Assembly (NCBI RefSeq): GCF_003024685.1
Contig: NZ_PYLQ01000002.1
Location: 75,062-139,061, forward strand
DNA: 64,000 bases
Source of the DNA: Faecalibacillus intestinalis
GTDB lineage: Bacteria > Bacillota_I > Bacilli_A > Erysipelotrichales > Coprobacillaceae
Direction: 5' to 3'
The notes below the pieces were generated by a model that ran no database searches, was not told the origin of the DNA, and worked only from the letters and a program-made list of their open reading frames with translations. Shown one piece after another: positions 29,235 through 49,764 of this stretch (positions are counted from its first letter, which is position 1; the number at the start of each line of letters is the position of its first letter). The position numbers and the translations under genes were made by a program.

Positions 29235-30530
29235 TTAAGCATTGCTCGCTACTTTATCAAGAAGTCTTGCGGAATCCCGTTTTGCTTTTCTTGTTGAGTG
29301 AGCGTAAATATTCATTGTGGTACTGACATCAGAGTGTCCTAACAGTTCCTGTACATCTTTCGGTGCAGCTCCATTGGAAAGCAGATTGCTGGTATAAGTG
29401 TGACGCAACTGGTGAAAATGGAAATCTTCAAATCCTTCCAGCTTCTTTGCCACTGATCTGCATACAATGCTGAGTGTACTCGGCAGTTCCAAAGAGCCAT
29501 CTGGTCGCAGGCAGACAAAGGAGATTTCTTTGTAATCTGTCGGGACTTCCTGTGTTCCGTCAAGATGATAGTATTCATAATATACCCTGTTTTTCACATG
29601 CACTTCTTTGTAGTAATTGCGGTGATATAATTCGCCATACTGCATCCGGTTTTTGAGCTGTTCTTTTCTGGCAGCTTTCAGTATTTCAGTCAGCGTATCT
29701 CCAAAATCAACAATCCTTACTTTTTTCCGTTTCGTTGGTCCGATAATATTTTTGTGTTTCATGCCGTCGTAGCGGATACTGCGTTTTATGGTCAGGCATT
29801 GTTCCTCAAGGTTAATGTCCTGCCATGTAAGACCACAGGTTTCCCCGATACGGAGCCCGGCATAATACGCAATTTGAATCGGAAGAATAGCAGGTGGATT
29901 TTTCTTTTCCAGATATTGGATAAGCCGTTCATAATCCTCATGTGAAATCGGCTGTGTACCTTCTTCCACTTCATCATCGGAAAAGAGGTCAACTTCCTCT
30001 GCCTGCTTTTTCAGCTTAATATACTGCATCGGATTGAAACTGATTAACTGTTTTGGAAATACTGCAAAACGGAATGACTGCTGTAACACTGCGGAAAAAG
30101 AATGGATATAATCTTTGCTGTATCCCTTTTTTACTTTCCCGTCTGGAAACTCACCACCGAATGTAAGCAGATCAAGAAATGCCTGTAAATGTTCGGCAGT
30201 AACTGTTTTCAGTTTGCGGTCTGCAATCGGGTGTTTTTTGATACATCGGATTGCACCAAGATAATTTTCCACTGTACCGTTGCTGAGTGTCCCAGTTTTC
30301 AGTTCTTCTTCTGCCCACATATCCAGAAGTTCCCCTACGGTAAGATTATCTGCCTTTGCAACAAACTTCTTATCTTCGTAGTCTTCCAGTGCCTTGCGGA
30401 GAAGCTTTTCCGTCTCACTTTTACTTTCGGTTCCGGCGTATTCTTTCTGAACCATTTTACCGCTTGCATCTTCTACATAGAAACGATAGTACCATTTTTT
30501 TCCTTTTTTTCTAACAGATCCTTTTGCCAT
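29235..30530 (-). CDS. Tn916-type tyrosine integrase of IME1
   Basis: 431 residues from the ATG at 30530, preceded by AAAGGAG; a longer upstream frame is unlikely. N-terminal arm-binding sheet (KGKKWYYRFYVEDASGK), SAM-like core-binding domain (about 60-165), catalytic domain with Arg in YYAGLRIGETCGL, HQLRHTYTSNLL (His373, Arg376), LLGHSD (His399) and nucleophile Tyr at about 409 (MNIYAHST). It integrates and, with excisionase, excises the element. All catalytic residues are present. Closely related to the integrase at 48469-49764. Confidence 0.93.
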   Translation of the reverse strand: MAKGSVRKKGKKWYYRFYVEDASGKMVQKEYAGTESKSETEKLLRKALEDYEDKKFVAKADNLTVGELLDMWAEEELKTGTLSNGTVENYLGAIRCIKKHPIADRKLKTVTAEHLQAFLDLLTFGGEFPDGKVKKGYSKDYIHSFSAVLQQSFRFAVFPKQLISFNPMQYIKLKKQAEEVDLFSDDEVEEGTQPISHEDYERLIQYLEKKNPPAILPIQIAYYAGLRIGETCGLTWQDINLEEQCLTIKRSIRYDGMKHKNIIGPTKRKKVRIVDFGDTLTEILKAARKEQLKNRMQYGELYHRNYYKEVHVKNRVYYEYYHLDGTQEVPTDYKEISFVCLRPDGSLELPSTLSIVCRSVAKKLEGFEDFHFHQLRHTYTSNLLSNGAAPKDVQELLGHSDVSTTMNIYAHSTRKAKRDSARLLDKVASNA

Positions 30531-30595
30531 AATCGTATGTCTCCTTTCGATATCAGACAATCGGAACTGCTGAAATGCTTCTTGCGTGTAGGCAT

Positions 30596-31870: not shown

Positions 31871-32185
31871 ATGGCAAGATCAACAAAGAGTTATGAGGAG
31901 CGTATGCTCCAGTTGGAAAAGAAAGAACAGGAAAGCCTTGAGAAAGCAAAACAGTATGCAGCACAGAAACGGGAACTGAAGAAACGTCAGAAAGATGTGG
32001 AAACCAAAAAACGGACACACAGGCTCTGCCAGATTGGCGGTGCAGTGGAATCGGTACTGGGTTCTGCGATTGAGGAAGATGATATCCCAAAGCTGATCGG
32101 CTTCTTAAAAAGGCAGGAAGCAAATGGGAAATTCTTCTCAAAGGCAATGCAGAAAGAGCCAGTTGCAAATACGGAGGAAGTGTAA
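31871..32185 (+). CDS. Small DUF3847-like mobilization accessory protein
   Basis: 104 residues from the ATG at 31871 (MARSTKSYEERML), the start used by the IME2 copy; upstream in-frame sequence lacks conservation. A charged N-terminal helix (LEKKEQESLEKAKQYAAQKRELKKRQ) precedes RTHRLCQIGGAVESVLG and IPKLIGFLKRQEANG. This resembles small proteins found before MobA/MobL genes in many Clostridial elements, probably MobC-like oriT helpers. The family name is tentative. It ends exactly at the oriT segment (TAATG junction). Confidence 0.7.
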   Translation: MARSTKSYEERMLQLEKKEQESLEKAKQYAAQKRELKKRQKDVETKKRTHRLCQIGGAVESVLGSAIEEDDIPKLIGFLKRQEANGKFFSKAMQKEPVANTEEV

Positions 32186-32470
32186 TGCCGGAGGGAGTGG
32201 AGTTTCCATTCCCTTCATTGCTTTTTTATGAAGGGCGCACTTATGGACAACCAGAGGTCGTCCGTATAAGTTTGCCACAGGTGGCAACCGGTCTGCGCTT
32301 ACGCTTGCCGGGCTCGTTCCGTCGGCGGGGCTTTCAGCCAGACCTGCTCATGCCGCAGGAGGCACTCTTCGCCAGAGGGGCACATTCCATGCAGGCTGTT
32401 ATGCACAGGGCACTCTTACGCAGAGGGTGCTCCGGCAGATACCATTTTCTTTTAGGAAAAACGTTACCTG
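32185..32470 (-). other. oriT: oriT region of IME1 with IncQ-type nic
   Basis: On the minus strand TAAGTGCGCCCT (32243-32232) matches the IncQ/MOBQ nic consensus, with an imperfect hairpin upstream (ACTTATACGGAC / GTCCATAAGT) and a TTGCCAC/GTGGCAA dyad beyond. About 250 bases here are nearly identical to the IME2 copy, much more so than the flanking genes. An ORF of 117 codons (32185-32538) overlaps the segment in both elements. The DNA-level conservation suggests it is mainly a DNA site, but translation is not excluded. Confidence 0.8.
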
Positions 32471-32513
32471 CCGGAAATCAAAGCCGGATACGGCAGAATG
32501 GGGGAAACGGAGC

Positions 32514-34235
32514 ATGGCGATTTTTCATTATACAGTAAAGATTGTTGGACGCAGCAAAGGAAAATCCATCATATCGGCGTCTGCTTATCTCAATGGCGAT
32601 GTGATGAAAAATGAAGAAACAGGCAGGATCAGCTACTATACTTCAAAAAAAGAAGTCGTTTATACCAGCCTGCTGATGTGTGAAAATGCACCACAGGAAT
32701 GGCAGAATGTACCTGCTGAAAATATCAGACGGTTCCAGAAATCTGTCCGATATAAAAGGGCAGATAACCAAAATGCTGCACTGGAAAAATTCAAACTTAC
32801 TTTTCAGAAGCAGCGTTTATGGAATGAAGTCTTGAGGATAGAAAAAAGTTCAGATGCACAACTCGGCAGGTCATTTGAGTTCTCACTTCCGAAAGAATGG
32901 AGCCGACAGGAACAGATTGATTATACAACTGAATATATTCAAAAGACCTTTGTAGATAAGGGAATGTGTGCGGATTGGAGTATCCACGATAAAGGAGATG
33001 GTAATCCCCATGTGCATTTACTGGTGACGATGCGACCATTCAATTCAGACCACTCATGGGGTAACAAAGAAATCAAGGATTGGGAGTTTGTCAGAGATGA
33101 AAATGGAAATATTGTGGTGGATGAATCCCATCCGGACTGGTGGCAGGATAAAAAGAACCCTGACCGTCATGGAATCCGAATCCCCGTACTTGATGAAAAT
33201 GGAGTCCAGAAAGTCGGGACAAGGAACCGCAAACAGTGGAAACGTGTATTAACCGATGCTACCGGGTGGAACAATCCGAAAAATTGTGAGCTATGGCGGA
33301 GCGAATGGGCAAACGTCTGTAATGCACATTTGAAAACGGAAAATCACATTGACCATCGTTCTTATGCAAGGCAGGGAAAATTAGAGATACCGACGATCCA
33401 TGAGGGCGCAGATGCCAGAAAAATTGACGAGAAATTTCAAAACGGACAGACATCCTCTACTTCATGGAAAGTAGAGGAAAACCAGATCATAAAAAGACAA
33501 AATGCACTGCTGGATAAAATACAGATTTCTTTTGGAAAAGTATCCAGTGCATTAACACAATGGAAGGAGCGATTGCGTGACATTAGAAGAAAGCCGGGAA
33601 GTCATTTCCATGATGGAGACAATGATAAACCAGATCGAGGAACAGCAGAATCTTATGGCAGAGATGGTACAGGAATTGCAGGAACGGGACAGGCAGCTCC
33701 TGTCTTTTCAGGAGCAGAACCAGAGTTTAAAAAGCTTAAACAGCGAATTATCCAGGCTGCTAAATCTTTTGCCAGATACAGAAGAACTGCTCTCACAGAT
33801 CGAGCAACAGAAAACCAGAATCGAACAGTTGGAAAACGAGAATCAGCAATGGCAGGAATTAACGCAGAAGCTGAACAACGAGAACAGCTTATTGCAGAAA
33901 CAGAACAGCGAATTGCTGACCTTAAACAGCAGATAGAGAAAGCGAGGGAGATCGATGAGCGAATGCAGAAACTTAGAGAACGTCGGGCAGGTGGAAGAAC
34001 TTCTGCTGATGACCGAACAGATGCAGGACGAACTGGATCAGAAAGACCAGACAATCCAGGAACTAAACAGGCAGCTAAGCGAATCGCTGACCTTGAACGA
34101 GAAATTGAACAGCGAAAACAGAGCCGAGAATATCGAAGCATTGCGGACAAGATTAAGGCAAACAGAGGAACGATTGACCAGCGAGACAGACAGCAGGAAA
34201 AGAGCCGACGCAGAAGCCGTGGCATGGAAATTTAA
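32514..34235 (+). CDS. MobA/MobL-family (MOBQ) relaxase of IME1
   Basis: 573 residues from the ATG at 32514 (MAIFHYTVKIVGRSKGKS), matching the IME2 start. The N-terminal relaxase domain has the metal-binding HVH (His166, His168 in GDGNPHVHLL) and the family-typical SASAYLNGDVMKNEETG. The C-terminal third (about 355-573) is charged and coiled, and its DNA also encodes two other proteins in the +1 frame. It nicks oriT and pilots the strand during mobilization by a helper system. Confidence 0.92.
   Translation: MAIFHYTVKIVGRSKGKSIISASAYLNGDVMKNEETGRISYYTSKKEVVYTSLLMCENAPQEWQNVPAENIRRFQKSVRYKRADNQNAALEKFKLTFQKQRLWNEVLRIEKSSDAQLGRSFEFSLPKEWSRQEQIDYTTEYIQKTFVDKGMCADWSIHDKGDGNPHVHLLVTMRPFNSDHSWGNKEIKDWEFVRDENGNIVVDESHPDWWQDKKNPDRHGIRIPVLDENGVQKVGTRNRKQWKRVLTDATGWNNPKNCELWRSEWANVCNAHLKTENHIDHRSYARQGKLEIPTIHEGADARKIDEKFQNGQTSSTSWKVEENQIIKRQNALLDKIQISFGKVSSALTQWKERLRDIRRKPGSHFHDGDNDKPDRGTAESYGRDGTGIAGTGQAAPVFSGAEPEFKKLKQRIIQAAKSFARYRRTALTDRATENQNRTVGKRESAMAGINAEAEQREQLIAETEQRIADLKQQIEKAREIDERMQKLRERRAGGRTSADDRTDAGRTGSERPDNPGTKQAAKRIADLEREIEQRKQSREYRSIADKIKANRGTIDQRDRQQEKSRRRSRGMEI
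33577..33936 (+). CDS. Coiled-coil protein encoded inside the relaxase gene (+1 frame)
   Basis: 119 residues, GTG start with AAGGAG 8 bases before. Almost entirely coiled coil rich in Gln, Glu and Leu, ending LLTLNSR. It lies wholly within the relaxase gene in another frame. The IME2 copy (45146-45505) has the same length, start position and stop, and by my hand alignment 85 of 119 residues are identical; the relaxase frame over the same DNA is only about 54% identical. Selection therefore acts on this frame. The layout recalls mobB inside mobA of IncQ plasmids. Confidence 0.75.
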   Translation: MTLEESREVISMMETMINQIEEQQNLMAEMVQELQERDRQLLSFQEQNQSLKSLNSELSRLLNLLPDTEELLSQIEQQKTRIEQLENENQQWQELTQKLNNENSLLQKQNSELLTLNSR

Positions 34236-44161: not shown

Positions 44162-45127
44162 CTAATATGGTCTTTTTTCTAACCAAACTTTAAGATAACA
44201 TCTAATTCCAACATATGCGCCCTGCGAAAGTACGAAAAGCAATAGAAGATTTACTGACAGTACTTTTTTGATTGATTCTCCAAAATAAATGACAATAGCA
44301 ACACTTGTCAGTATCATTAGTAGAGTAATAACATCCCAACAGTTTTTCTTATATAATTCTATAACCTTTATTTCTATCAGTATCGCCAGCATCCCTGTTC
44401 CTGCCATACATATTCCTACAATCAATATTAGCAATAACCAATATACCATTCCGGCTATAAAAGCATTTGGAATTTTTGTACTAATCTGTGCCGCAGAATG
44501 CCCGGCATCAATCGTCCATCCGACAAAGGTTTGTATGAATGATGCTAAATCATTGAAGAATGATTTACAATCGACAAGGAACATATCTGACTGTACTGCC
44601 TGAAAAAGAGTGGTTGTCAATGAATACCATGCAAGAAGGAACAAGGTTGTTTGGAACATTACCGTTTTTGCTTTATACTGTCCTGCAAGTCGCTCTTTTT
44701 GTGTTTCGTATTTTGCTTTTGCATTCTGATAGGCTGTCCGGTTACAGGCTTCACATTTTTCATAGAGTACCGGCTTTTCTACCGGTATTTCTACGATTTT
44801 CTGATGTGTCCGGGCATAATCCCGTTCCTGTGTTAAATAGCATATTTTATCTTGACATTCCTCTATCATGACGTTTGCGCTTCGCAACTTCTCTTTCTCG
44901 ATCCGCAATGCTCTGTCTGCCAGCTTCAAGTCGTTCTTTAATGCTTGAATATTCCCGACTCTGTTCTCTTTGTTTAATTTCTCGTTCAAGGTCAGAGATT
45001 CGCTGAGCTGCGTCTTCAGTTCCACGATAAGCTGTTCTTTCTGTTCTAGTTCTTCTTGTATCTCCTCGGTCAAGAGCAGAAGTTCTTCCAACTGTTCGGC
45101 GTTCTTTGATTCTCTGGATTCGTTCAT
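44162..45127 (-). CDS. Membrane protein with coiled-coil N-terminus, IME2 copy
   Basis: 321 residues, counterpart of 33955-34923. Coiled coil at about 8-100, Cys motif YEKCEACNRTAYQNAKAKYE, then four or so membrane helices (TLFLLAWYSLTTTLFQAV, AGMVYWLLLILIVGICMAGTG, VITLLMILTSVAIVIYFGE, NLLLLFVLSQGAYVG). Its first part overlaps the relaxase in another frame. Conserved between the two elements in length and topology, so it is a real gene. Likely role in relaxosome docking (inference). Confidence 0.75.
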   Translation of the reverse strand: MNESRESKNAEQLEELLLLTEEIQEELEQKEQLIVELKTQLSESLTLNEKLNKENRVGNIQALKNDLKLADRALRIEKEKLRSANVMIEECQDKICYLTQERDYARTHQKIVEIPVEKPVLYEKCEACNRTAYQNAKAKYETQKERLAGQYKAKTVMFQTTLFLLAWYSLTTTLFQAVQSDMFLVDCKSFFNDLASFIQTFVGWTIDAGHSAAQISTKIPNAFIAGMVYWLLLILIVGICMAGTGMLAILIEIKVIELYKKNCWDVITLLMILTSVAIVIYFGESIKKVLSVNLLLLFVLSQGAYVGIRCYLKVWLEKRPY

Positions 45128-46568
45128 CTATATCACGTCCTTTCTCTATCTGCTGTTCCAGTTCAGCAATTCGGTGTTCTGTTTCAGTAATAAACTGTTT
45201 TCGCTGTTCAGCTTCTGTGCCAATTTCTGCCATTGCTGATTTTCGTTTTCCAAAAGCTCTATCTTCGTTTTCTGTTCTTCCATCTTGGAAAGCAGTTCCT
45301 CGGTATTTGGCAAAATGTTGAGCAGCTCGGTTAACTCGTTGTTTAATTTTTGTAATTTCTGATTCTGTTTTTGCATAAGAGAGAGTTGAGTGTCCCGGTT
45401 CTGCATTTCCAGAATCATTTCTGCCATTAGGTTCTGCTGTTCTTCGATTTGACCAATCATGGATTCCATTAAGGGTATAATTTCCCGGCTTTCTTCTAAT
45501 GTCATTTAATCGCTCCTTCCATAATGATAATGCACCCGATACTTTCCCAAAGGTGTTTAGTATCTTTTGCAATAACGTGTTTTGTTGTTTTATGATTTGA
45601 TTTTCCGCTACTTTCCACGAGCCTTTTATTTCCTGCCCGGCAAAAAACTTTTGTTCAATCTTTCTTGCGTCAGCTCCTTCATGGATGGTAGGAATCTGGA
45701 GTTTTCCCTGCTTTTCATAAGAACGATGATCAACTTGATTATGCAAAGGCAGATGTTCATTACATACCTTTGCCCATTCACTCCGCCACAGTTCACAATT
45801 TTTTGGATTGTTCCATCCAGTAGCATCGGTCAGCACCCGTTTCCATTGCAGGCGGTTTCTTGCTCCAATCTTCTGAATTCCGTTTTCGTCTAATACAGGG
45901 ATACGGATTCCATGACGGTCAGGGTTTTTCTTATCCTGCCACCAGTTCGGATGGGATTCATCAATCACGATATTTCCGTTTTTATCTCTGACAAAATCCC
46001 AATCCTTGACTTCTTTCTTTCCCCAAGAATGATCCGGGTTAAAAGGACGCATAGTTAGAAGCAGATGGACATGGGGGTTGCCATCCCCTTTGTCGTGGAT
46101 ACTCCAATCAGCGCACATTCCTCTATCTACAAAAGTTTTTTGGATATAGTCGGTTGTATATTGAATTTGTTCCTGTCTGCTCCATTCTTTGGGGAGGGCA
46201 AATTCAAATGACCTGCCAAGTTGGGCATCTGCATTTTTTTCAATCTTCAATACCTCATTCCATAACCTCTGTTTTTGAAATGTGATTTTAAATTTTTTTA
46301 TAGCAGCTTCTTTATCTTCTGACCTTTTGTATCGGACAGACTTTTGAAAGCGTTTTATATTTTCCTCTGGTACTATCTGCCATTCAGAAGGTGCGTTTTC
46401 GCACATCATCAGACTGGTGTAGACCACTTCTTTTTTAGAAGTGTAATAACTGATACTCCCGGTTTCTTCGTTTTTCATCACATCCCCATTGAGATATGCA
46501 GAAGCGGAGATAACAGATTTTCCTTTACTTCGTCCGACTATTTTGATTGTGTAATGAAAAATCGCCAT
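44847..46568 (-). CDS. MobA/MobL-family (MOBQ) relaxase of IME2
   Basis: 573 residues from the ATG at 46568 with AGGAGGAA upstream. MAIFHYTIKIVGRSKGKSV start, SASAYLNGDVMKNEETG and the HVH metal site in GDGNPHVHLLLTM. The N-terminal 350 residues are very close to the IME1 relaxase; the C-terminal third diverges more while the overlapping frame stays conserved. It nicks the IncQ-type oriT at 46838-46849. Confidence 0.92.
   Translation of the reverse strand: MAIFHYTIKIVGRSKGKSVISASAYLNGDVMKNEETGSISYYTSKKEVVYTSLMMCENAPSEWQIVPEENIKRFQKSVRYKRSEDKEAAIKKFKITFQKQRLWNEVLKIEKNADAQLGRSFEFALPKEWSRQEQIQYTTDYIQKTFVDRGMCADWSIHDKGDGNPHVHLLLTMRPFNPDHSWGKKEVKDWDFVRDKNGNIVIDESHPNWWQDKKNPDRHGIRIPVLDENGIQKIGARNRLQWKRVLTDATGWNNPKNCELWRSEWAKVCNEHLPLHNQVDHRSYEKQGKLQIPTIHEGADARKIEQKFFAGQEIKGSWKVAENQIIKQQNTLLQKILNTFGKVSGALSLWKERLNDIRRKPGNYTLNGIHDWSNRRTAEPNGRNDSGNAEPGHSTLSYAKTESEITKIKQRVNRAAQHFAKYRGTAFQDGRTENEDRAFGKRKSAMAEIGTEAEQRKQFITETEHRIAELEQQIEKGRDIDERIQRIKERRTVGRTSALDRGDTRRTRTERTAYRGTEDAAQRISDLEREIKQREQSREYSSIKERLEAGRQSIADREREVAKRKRHDRGMSR
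45146..45505 (-). CDS. Coiled-coil protein inside the relaxase gene, IME2 copy
   Basis: 119 residues starting MTLEESREIIPLMESM, with ATG and AAGGAG upstream. Same length, position and stop as the IME1 copy at 33577-33936, about 71% identical by hand alignment. Almost all coiled coil, Gln- and Leu-rich, ending LLNWNSR. Eighteen bases separate it from the membrane protein gene in the same frame. Confidence 0.75.
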   Translation of the reverse strand: MTLEESREIIPLMESMIGQIEEQQNLMAEMILEMQNRDTQLSLMQKQNQKLQKLNNELTELLNILPNTEELLSKMEEQKTKIELLENENQQWQKLAQKLNSENSLLLKQNTELLNWNSR

Positions 46569-46609
46569 GTCTGGATTCCTCCTTTCTGCACATCCGGCAT
46601 AGATTTCCG

Positions 46610-46895
46610 GCAACATTGCTTTCAATTTTAGAAAAAGCAGCATTGCCGGAACGCCCTCTGCGTAAGAGTGCCCTGCGCATAGCAGTCTGCATGGAATGCG
46701 CCCCTCTGGCGAAGAGTGCCTCCTGCGGCATGAGCAGGTCTGGCTGAAAGCCCCGCCGACGGAACGAGCCCGGCAAGCGTGAGCGCAGACCGGTTGCCAC
46801 TTGTGGCAAACTTATTGGGACGACCTCTGGTTGTCCATAAGTGCGCCCTTCATGAAAAAGCAATGAAGGGAATGAAAAACTCATCCCCTCCGCCA
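46610..46895 (+). other. oriT: oriT region of IME2 with IncQ-type nic
   Basis: TAAGTGCGCCCT at 46838-46849 on the plus strand is the IncQ/MOBQ nic consensus. Upstream are the imperfect stem ACTTATTGGGAC / GTCCATAAGT and the dyad TTGCCAC/GTGGCAA near 46794-46809. The roughly 250-base block continues to about 46640 and is nearly identical to the IME1 copy. A 123-codon ORF (46525-46896, minus) runs through it, matching the IME1 ORF. Confidence 0.8.
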
Positions 46896-47210
46896 TTACA
46901 CTTCCTCCATATCGGTATTGGCTTCTTTCTGCATTGCCTTTGAGAAAAACTTCCCATTGGCTTCCTGCCTTTTCAGAAAACCAATCAGCTTTGGGATGTC
47001 TTCCTCCTCAATAGGTGCACCAAGAACGGATTCCACTGCACCGCCAATCTGACAGAGCCTATGGGTTCGTTTTTTACTTTCTTCGGCTTTCTTTCGTTTC
47101 AGAAGTTCTTTCTTCTGTGTTGCATATCTTTTCGCCTTTTCAAGGCTTTCCTGTTCCTTCTTTTCCATTTCAAGCATTCGTTCTTCATAACTTTTTGTTG
47201 ATTTTGCCAT
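46896..47210 (-). CDS. Small DUF3847-like mobilization accessory protein, IME2 copy
   Basis: 104 residues, MAKSTKSYEERMLEMEKKEQ start. Charged helix followed by KRTHRLCQIGGAVESVLGA and IPKLIGFLKRQEANGKFFSKAM, as in IME1 (31871-32185). A GGGGAATG-type site precedes the ATG. Its stop overlaps the start of the oriT ORF. Probably binds oriT or the relaxase; not proven. Family name tentative. Confidence 0.7.
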   Translation of the reverse strand: MAKSTKSYEERMLEMEKKEQESLEKAKRYATQKKELLKRKKAEESKKRTHRLCQIGGAVESVLGAPIEEEDIPKLIGFLKRQEANGKFFSKAMQKEANTDMEEV

Positions 47211-48382: not shown

Positions 48383-48468
48383 TAAGACAACCGGAGTTAT
48401 GATATACTTACACGCACGAAGCATTTCATCAGTTCCGATTGTCTAATATCGAAAGGAGACATACGATT

Positions 48469-49764
48469 ATGGCAAAAGGATCTGTAAGAAAAAAAGGAAA
48501 GAAATGGTACTACCGCTTCTATGTAGAGGACGCAAGCGGCAATCTTGTTCAGAAAGAATGCGTTGGAACAGAAAGCAAAAGTGGAACTGAAAAGCTGCTC
48601 CGTCAGGCAATGGATGATTATGAGAAAAAGAAATTTGTTGCCAAAGCGGAAAATCTCACAGTCGGACAACTTCTGGATGTGTGGGCAGAGGAGGAATTAA
48701 AAACAGGTACGCTCAGCAATGGTACGGTGGAGAATTACCTCGGAACAATCCGAAATATTAAGAAACACCCATTGGCAGAACGGAAACTGAAAAATGTAAC
48801 CTCTGAACATTCGCAATCCTTTTTTGATTTGCTTTCCTTCGGGGGAGTTCATCCCGACGGAAAAGAGAGAAAGGGTTACAGCAAAGATTACATCCATTCT
48901 TTTTCCGCAGTCATGCAGCAGTCCTTCCGCTTTGCAGTATTTCCAAAACAGTATATTACGTTTAATCCCATGCAGTATATTAAACTGCGGTATCAGACGG
49001 ATGAAGTTGATTTGTTTTCAGACGAGGACATGGACGGAAATATCCAACCAATTTCACGAGAAGATTATGAAAGATTGCTTGCTTATCTGAAAAAAAAGAA
49101 CCCAGCCGCAATACTTCCAATCCAGATAGCCTATTATGCCGGGCTTCGTATTGGAGAAGCCTGCGGTTTGGCGTGGCAGGACGTAAATCTGGAAGAACAA
49201 TGCCTTACCATAAGACGTAGCATCCGATACGATGGCTCAAAGCGCAAATATATCATCGGACCAACCAAGCGGAAAAAAGTGAGGATTGTTGATTTTGGAG
49301 ATACGCTGGTAGAGATTTTCCGTAATGCCCGGAAAGAGCAGTTAAAAAATCGAATGCAGTACGGAGAACTTTATCACACGAACTACTACAAAGCGGTCAA
49401 AGAGAAAAACAGAGTGTACTACGAATATTATTGCTTAGACAGAACAGAGGAAGTCCCGGCAGATTATAAAGAAATTTCTTTCGTCTGTTTAAGACCGGAT
49501 GGTTGTCTGGAACTTCCAACTACTTTGGGGACTGTTTGCAGAAAGGTGGCAAAAACATTAGAGGGATTTGAAGGCTTTCATTTCCACCAGTTACGTCACA
49601 CCTATACAAGCAACCTTTTAGCAAATGGAGCTGCCCCAAAAGATGTGCAGGAACTGTTAGGACACTCAGATGTAAGTACCACAATGAATGTCTATGCTCA
49701 CTCCACAAGAGATGCTAAACGAAAATCAGTTAGGCTTCTTGATAAAGTGGTAGGCAATGATTAA
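48469..49764 (+). CDS. Tn916-type tyrosine integrase of IME2
   Basis: 431 residues from the ATG at 48469, AAAGGAG upstream. Arm-binding sheet KGKKWYYRFYVEDASGN, catalytic Arg in YYAGLRIGEACGL, HQLRHTYTSNLL, LLGHSD and Tyr in TTMNVYAHST, all present. Closely related to the IME1 integrase, differing throughout. It lies about 125 bases from the att-like end of IME2. Confidence 0.93.
   Translation: MAKGSVRKKGKKWYYRFYVEDASGNLVQKECVGTESKSGTEKLLRQAMDDYEKKKFVAKAENLTVGQLLDVWAEEELKTGTLSNGTVENYLGTIRNIKKHPLAERKLKNVTSEHSQSFFDLLSFGGVHPDGKERKGYSKDYIHSFSAVMQQSFRFAVFPKQYITFNPMQYIKLRYQTDEVDLFSDEDMDGNIQPISREDYERLLAYLKKKNPAAILPIQIAYYAGLRIGEACGLAWQDVNLEEQCLTIRRSIRYDGSKRKYIIGPTKRKKVRIVDFGDTLVEIFRNARKEQLKNRMQYGELYHTNYYKAVKEKNRVYYEYYCLDRTEEVPADYKEISFVCLRPDGCLELPTTLGTVCRKVAKTLEGFEGFHFHQLRHTYTSNLLANGAAPKDVQELLGHSDVSTTMNVYAHSTRDAKRKSVRLLDKVVGND

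Follow-up and report, generated by a model that had tools for sequence, protein, structure and literature searches.

A conserved coiled-coil gene in the +1 frame of the relaxase genes of two IMEs from Faecalibacillus intestinalis

Two related IMEs lie tail to tail and in opposite orientation at positions 29235-49764 of the window, the 64,000-nucleotide stretch of Faecalibacillus intestinalis DNA analysed here (contig NZ_PYLQ01000002.1, positions 75,062 to 139,061). In each, the 3' part of the relaxase gene is shared with genes in a second reading frame (Table 1). The catalytic part of the IME1 relaxase occupies codons 1 to about 350; codons 355-573 form an overprinted C-terminal tail ending in ...KSRRRSRGMEI. 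A sequence-only reading of this DNA had placed a 119-residue ORF wholly inside mobA/mobL in the +1 frame, followed 18 bases later in the same frame by a membrane-protein gene. These positions hold in both IMEs, and the membrane protein belongs to the DUF6040 family. The DUF6040 gene starts inside the relaxase gene, 18 nt past the nested stop, and extends 0.7 kb past the relaxase end in both elements; in IME1 the overlap with the end of the relaxase gene takes in its first ~93 codons. Starts, ribosome sites and stops also agree between the elements, as had been claimed: AAGGAG lies 7 nt before the nested gene, GAGGGA lies 5 nt before the DUF6040 gene, and the two accessory genes are spaced identically.

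Table 1. Features of the two IMEs, with positions in the window
Feature	Position	Strand	Evidence
IME1 tyrosine-type integrase, 441 aa (element context)	29235..30560	-	matching position in Agathobacter record annotated tyrosine-type recombinase/integrase
IME1 relaxase, MobA/MobL (MOBQ-class, PF03389), 573 aa	32514..34235	+	PF03389 E=4.5e-72
AAGGAG ribosome-binding site of IME1 nested gene, 7 nt before start, within relaxase codons W-K-E-R	33564..33569	+	
IME1 nested gene, +1 frame, GTG start, 119 aa, wholly inside relaxase gene	33577..33936	+	
GAGGGA ribosome-site-like sequence, 5 nt before IME1 DUF6040 gene	33944..33949	+	
IME1 DUF6040 membrane-protein gene, 322 aa	33955..34923	+	PF19506 E=1.6e-95
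IME2 DUF6040 membrane-protein gene, 321 aa	44162..45127	-	PF19506 E=2.5e-108
IME2 nested coiled-coil gene, ATG start, 119 aa, in-frame TAA immediately before ATG	45146..45505	-	
AAGGAG site of IME2 nested gene	45513..45518	-	
IME2 relaxase, 573 aa, 71% identity to IME1 relaxase	44847..46568	-	
IME2 tyrosine-type integrase, 441 aa (element context)	48439..49764	+	by layout match with Agathobacter record

MarR/MATE-like genes follow IME1; IME2 is followed by genes for a response regulator, a histidine kinase, an ABC transporter and an FtsX-like permease. In both layout and cargo, the Agathobacter plasmid NZ_CP143948 matches IME2. Just 5' of both relaxase genes lies a block (32185-32513 and 46569-46896) that is highly similar between the IMEs. 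It encodes a similar odd ORF in each (MxEGxxFPSLLFxEGRTYGQPEVVxISLPQ...). Instead of a gene, this block may be the oriT region.

Both relaxases pass the PF03389 model, with 243 and 251 bits against a gathering score of 26.7. Tyrosine 25 and histidines 158, 166 and 168 are invariant in the relaxase alignment; following published work on MobA_R1162 (PMC6856555), we equate these with the catalytic tyrosine and the three-histidine metal motif (HDK...NPHVH). Scores against the NCBIfam MobQ equivalog NF041496, 164 and 168 bits, fall under its curated cut-off of 200. Judged by these family models, the window relaxases are MOBQ-class relatives that lie outside the equivalog.

The two DUF6040 proteins score 319 and 361 bits against PF19506 (gathering score 23.4), a Pfam family of unknown function. 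An N-terminal coiled coil spans about residues 1-108, and hydropathy counts together with the model place several hydrophobic helices in the C-terminal half; relatives read directly have three or four hydrophobic segments. The model of the IME2 protein is of middling confidence (pLDDT 75.5, pTM 0.36) and consists of a helix of ~105 residues followed by several others. The nested 119-aa protein, which includes the stretch NILPNTEELLSK, matches no family in Pfam, NCBIfam or PHROGs, giving only generic coiled-coil matches under the cut-offs. Its model (pLDDT 94) has two long helices, residues 3-64 and 68-118, with a break at a conserved LP-x-TEELL motif, and the protein is predicted to be a soluble helical hairpin or kinked coiled coil. 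Foldseek searches of the PDB with the nested and DUF6040 proteins gave no useful match, and a PDB sequence search with the DUF6040 profile returned two chance matches of coiled-coil type. Could the nested gene be a tandem duplicate of the DUF6040 coiled coil? Alignment of the two with hhalign gives 83% probability, a score that is open to coiled-coil bias; homology signals among coiled coils are weak.

Is the nested ORF a gene at all? The simplest alternative is that it is an untranslated by-product of the composition of the relaxase tail, in which few codons produce +1 stops. When synonymous relaxase codons are shuffled, a +1 run of the observed length is kept in 12-86% of trials for the 119-codon sequences, and in 2% of trials for a 232-codon case. 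The length of the run is weak evidence because shuffling often keeps one equally long; the pattern of conservation decides. Between the two IMEs, the nested frame is 70.6% identical and the relaxase frame over the same DNA 51.7%, close to the 71% and 54% that the sequence-only reading had counted by hand. The catalytic part of the relaxase is 82% identical.

The frame-specific constraint that the sequence-only reading had proposed to look for in a larger alignment is present there, in five clades. Over relaxase codons 1-354, the mean pairwise difference at codon positions 1, 2 and 3 is 0.163, 0.104 and 0.439. Over the nested ORF it is 0.371, 0.267 and 0.189, and over the 5' part of the DUF6040 gene 0.383, 0.278 and 0.312. 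Such an inversion over the nested ORF is what constraint on the +1 frame would leave, with the third position of each +1 codon falling on relaxase position 1. As controls, two +1 ORFs that arise by chance elsewhere in the relaxase gene show ordinary values (0.18/0.09/0.42 at codons 192-246 and 0.17/0.12/0.45 at codons 248-314). The shift is significant in each of the five clades separately, with chi-square p values of 7e-8 to 1e-10.

Selection was also estimated by counting substitutions by their effect in both frames under parsimony, with calibration by simulation along the tree. A second simulation run, with recombinants removed and with two trees and two transition biases, agrees with the earlier one. 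In this simple model w over the nested ORF is 0.3-0.4 in the nested frame and 0.85-1.0 in the relaxase frame; in the catalytic part of the relaxase it is 0.12-0.16. Over the DUF6040 overlap both frames are mildly constrained, with w of 0.7 for the relaxase and 0.5-0.7 for DUF6040. Removing the +1 constraint from the model of the nested ORF costs 91-131 log-likelihood units. The reverse shuffle gives a different result from the first: when +1 synonymous codons are shuffled, the relaxase frame stays open in 0 of 2000 trials for each of ten sequences, with a mean of 5-10 stops. Because this shuffling always breaks the relaxase frame, its openness is under selection. By these patterns the relaxase tail over the nested ORF is near-neutral in its amino acids, and what selection mainly preserves there is an open frame leading to a conserved basic C-terminus. 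The nested frame, by contrast, evolves under purifying selection, with the frame-specific constraint that marks an overprinted protein-coding gene. The inverted codon-position pattern in all five clades and the likelihood difference at w of 0.3-0.4 make a compositional by-product exceedingly improbable, as does the fact that start, ribosome site and stop persist down to 54% identity and across differences in length.

The same data bear on a second alternative, that what is constrained is not a +1 protein but RNA or DNA (a structure, a second oriT or a recombination site). Mobilization regions do carry such sites, and recombination breakpoints fall at the start of the nested gene. The variation, however, has the three-base period of the +1 frame, with most freedom at relaxase position 1 and most conservation at position 3; both frames remain open through the length differences among homologues; and no Rfam family is found between 29000 and 50000. 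We consider this explanation to have next to no chance of being correct.

How widespread is the nested gene? The relaxase served as query in a single scan of 84,980 species genomes, which returned 60 loci. The +1 ORF is present in 52/52 loci that have at least 54% relaxase identity and include the region, so absence from most homologues, which would have counted against the gene, is not what is seen. Of the remaining eight loci, L078 and L081 are truncated at contig ends, L079 and L087 align with the relaxase over just part of its length, and L083-L086 are distant, at 30-39%. The collections scanned may omit records very close to the window's own genome. Carriers are rare in searches of sampled genomes, with just one further close match among the genomes drawn, and a scan of viral_contigs found no relatives. 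Homologues with the nested gene come mostly from Lachnospiraceae and their neighbours. In four loci (L036, L037, L052, L082) the relaxase has an early in-frame stop with the nested ORF intact; these stops may be real decay or sequence error.

Across the homologues the nested gene starts at the equivalent relaxase codon (355 in most) whether with ATG or GTG, and its products range from 78 to 232 aa. Start, ribosome site and stop are all kept down to 54% identity and across these changes in length. The ribosome site sits in a relaxase Trp-Lys-Glu. Within the relaxase domain, Lys-Glu is written AAGGAG at 1 of 74 pairs; at the nested ribosome site it is so written at every Lys-Glu, and variants with Lys to Arg or Glu to Gly keep a purine-rich GGGAG or AAGGGG site. 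Could ribosomes instead reach the +1 frame by frameshifting, producing a fusion of relaxase and coiled coil? The +1 gene begins just past the catalytic part, and slippage could be promoted by the ribosome-like site. In IME2 and in many of its relatives, however, the +1 frame has TAA immediately before the nested ATG, so that its open length equals that of the ORF and a frameshift upstream would terminate. Together with the retention of an initiation codon (ATG or GTG) and of a ribosome site at 7-nt spacing, this leaves frameshifting very improbable. From the conservation data, we regard the coding status of the nested ORF as close to certain.

What might its product do? The sequence-only reading compared the locus with mobA/mobB of IncQ plasmids and singled out the separate soluble coiled-coil protein as the point of difference. 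A better parallel is mbeA/mbeB/mbeD of ColE1, in which a separate soluble coiled coil, MbeD, already occurs. There, by our check of the frames, mbeB and mbeD lie in tandem in the +1 frame inside the 3' part of mbeA, as the accessory genes do in the IMEs. MbeB (172 aa) has a coiled coil and one hydrophobic or membrane segment; MbeD (77 aa, GTG start) is a soluble coiled coil. The plasmid pSNC3-Kan has mobA/mobB/mobD arranged as in ColE1 (PMC9282650). The differences are clear. The gap between accessory genes is 6 nt in ColE1 and 18 nt in the IMEs; the order is reversed, the membrane gene of ColE1 being the first of the two; mbeB and mbeD each stop within mbeA, whereas the IME DUF6040 gene runs far past the relaxase; and the ColE1 relaxase is of a different family, MOBP5, from Gram-negative plasmids, rather than MOBQ-class. 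Pfam matches up to E 0.1 include no MbeB or MbeD family, and BLASTP gives E 5.6 and 0.18. Thus the IME arrangement resembles that of ColE1 in architecture, its closest precedent, and membership of that system is not shown by sequence.

In IncQ1 plasmids (RSF1010/R1162) a MOBQ-class relaxase gene, mobA, is overlapped in its 3' part by mobB (PMC5572225). MobB of R1162 is reported to make the relaxosome more stable, and the transport signals of the relaxase to depend on it (Perwez and Meyer 1999; Parker and Meyer 2007, both as cited in PMC3297438 and PMC6098607). IncQ1 has a single overlapping accessory gene and a primase fusion; the IMEs have two +1 genes. None of the window proteins was named MobB in general scans with Pfam, NCBIfam and PHROGs, and the IncQ likeness described here is one of architecture. 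We know of no DUF6040-like protein in IncQ1. Among the papers searched, none mentions DUF6040 and none was found that describes this relaxase/+1 overlap in Clostridia. The +1 economy is known from ColE1; as far as these searches show, it is undescribed for this widespread gut family.

We propose that the nested ORF is a genuine gene that forms, with the DUF6040 gene, a +1 accessory cassette over the 3' tail of the relaxase gene, and that the two products are relaxosome accessories like MobB, MbeB and MbeD. Weighing all the analyses, we give this reading a probability of roughly 0.7. In such a mechanism, modelled on MobB of R1162/RSF1010 and MbeB/MbeD of ColE1, the 119-aa protein would act as a soluble adaptor of coiled-coil type, and DUF6040 would be anchored in the membrane with a coiled-coil arm reaching into the cytoplasm. 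The adaptor would pair with the DUF6040 coiled coil or with the relaxase tail. Adaptor and anchor might then bring the nicked complex of relaxase and oriT to the membrane and keep it beside the coupling protein that a helper conjugative element provides. The relaxase tail would be a flexible basic linker that carries an end signal past the overlap, and the overlap itself would tie together the expression and inheritance of the three proteins. If the pair acts in this way, it supplies a missing part of those mobilization systems in gut Clostridia whose cargo is of resistance type. A further consequence would be that embedding of accessory genes in the +1 frame of relaxase tails arose or was kept in Gram-positive MOBQ and MOBP systems, besides ColE1 and IncQ.

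The pair could have some other role, such as entry exclusion, copy control or another part of plasmid maintenance. MbeD of ColE1 is named a mobilization/exclusion protein in its record, and the two genes are separable. In one subtype (L073-L077) the coiled-coil gene stands alone, encoding 130-232 aa and followed by excisionase and integrase genes; a scan of plasmids for a nested protein of this type found no match. In another, DUF6040 stands alone, overlapping a MOBQ relaxase by ~335-554 nt (L084, pRUMAL04, pRGI00363 and M. gnavus unnamed1). Against such a role, the full DUF6040 gene overlaps the relaxase tail at every locus whose neighbourhood was read, and it does so with two relaxase families. 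We judge a function other than mobilization unlikely.

The ends of the relaxases are alike. In the IME homologues and in distant MobQ and MobP relaxases, the C-terminus is a short basic stretch with a glycine-containing end (RGMSR, RGRSR, DRGISL, RGMHL and similar). Ends of this kind (RGxS, GGMHL type) are common to the MobQ and MobP relaxases of unrelated plasmids in L083-L102. We infer from position and composition that this shared end is a candidate transport signal, and that the relaxase reads across the accessory genes to reach it. At L085, which has no overlapping gene, the relaxase is 314 aa long and has no long tail; its end is still DRGISL.

Which came first, the tail or the gene within it? 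The sequence-only reading spoke of genes carried inside the relaxase. The overlap is real, but the direction may be the reverse: the tail looks laid over the accessory genes, because the relaxase frame there is nearly unconstrained apart from its openness. The alternative is that the tail is old and that the coiled-coil gene arose within it by overprinting. Similar relaxase ends (DRGxS/GGMHL type) in MobQ proteins without an overlap indicate that the end itself is old. Overprinting of an old tail is nonetheless improbable to us, given that the long tail over the nested gene is close to neutral as relaxase sequence and changes in length together with that gene (78-232 aa), and given a relaxase at L085 that ends in DRGISL with no such tail.

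Two loci, L039 and L064, are natural recombinants. As far as about codon 360 they match the IME2 type at 92-98% identity; beyond it they match the IME1 type at 82-99%, and the breakpoint falls at the start of the nested gene. By these alignments, relaxase tail and nested gene are exchangeable as a unit onto another catalytic domain. With such recombinants available, the nested overlap is unusually well suited to measuring selection in both frames at once.

The layout had been described for the two IMEs, and both do show it; it is not confined to them, since DUF6040 also overlaps the tails of MOBQ and MOBP relaxases on plasmids. Five small plasmids have a DUF6040 gene overlapping a MOBQ or MOBP relaxase tail in the +1 frame. 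In pCD-METRO and a Waltera plasmid the relaxase is MOBP (PF03432), and the overlap in pCD-METRO is ~335 nt. More broadly, relaxase tail, coiled-coil gene and DUF6040 gene may make up a mobile accessory cassette on one stretch of DNA that passes between catalytic domains of the MOBQ and MOBP classes, the relaxase frame being hardly more than a linker that is kept open as far as a C-terminal secretion signal, and the tail being shaped by the genes it overlaps. We put this forward tentatively, as an idea with somewhat less than even prospects.

Long same-strand overlaps are rejected by gene finders. In the annotated record checked for this family, from Agathobacter, the nested coiled-coil ORF is missing and the DUF6040 gene is short by ~73 codons. 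In the records read that annotate DUF6040, those of other plasmids among them, the start is later than the open +1 frame permits. The PF19506 model starts at about residue 89 of the window proteins, and the open frame extends ~75-145 codons further upstream in the relaxase, a part omitted from the records. ORF4 of the C. difficile metronidazole-resistance plasmid pCD-METRO was described as a hypothetical protein with a MutS2 signature (PMC6992631). It is a DUF6040 protein (L091, NZ_OM972905.1, 1682-2695), and its open frame begins within the PF03432 relaxase gene, in +1, ~300 nt 5' of the start that the annotation gives.

MobQ plasmids of lactobacilli, lactococci, staphylococci and enterococci have relaxases of the same class (PF03389) with a basic C-terminal end, as in the IMEs. 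Unlike the IMEs, those checked outside the DUF6040 and L086 groups have no long +1 tail ORF. A +1 gene is not common to all MobQ relaxases: the lactic, staphylococcal, enterococcal, E. coli and Acinetobacter plasmids checked have none. A Limosilactobacillus MAG (L086, 4887-5396) has a distant MobA/MobL relaxase with a different ORF of 169 aa wholly nested in its +1 frame, behind an AAGGAG site. There is one plasmid relative, in L. reuteri.
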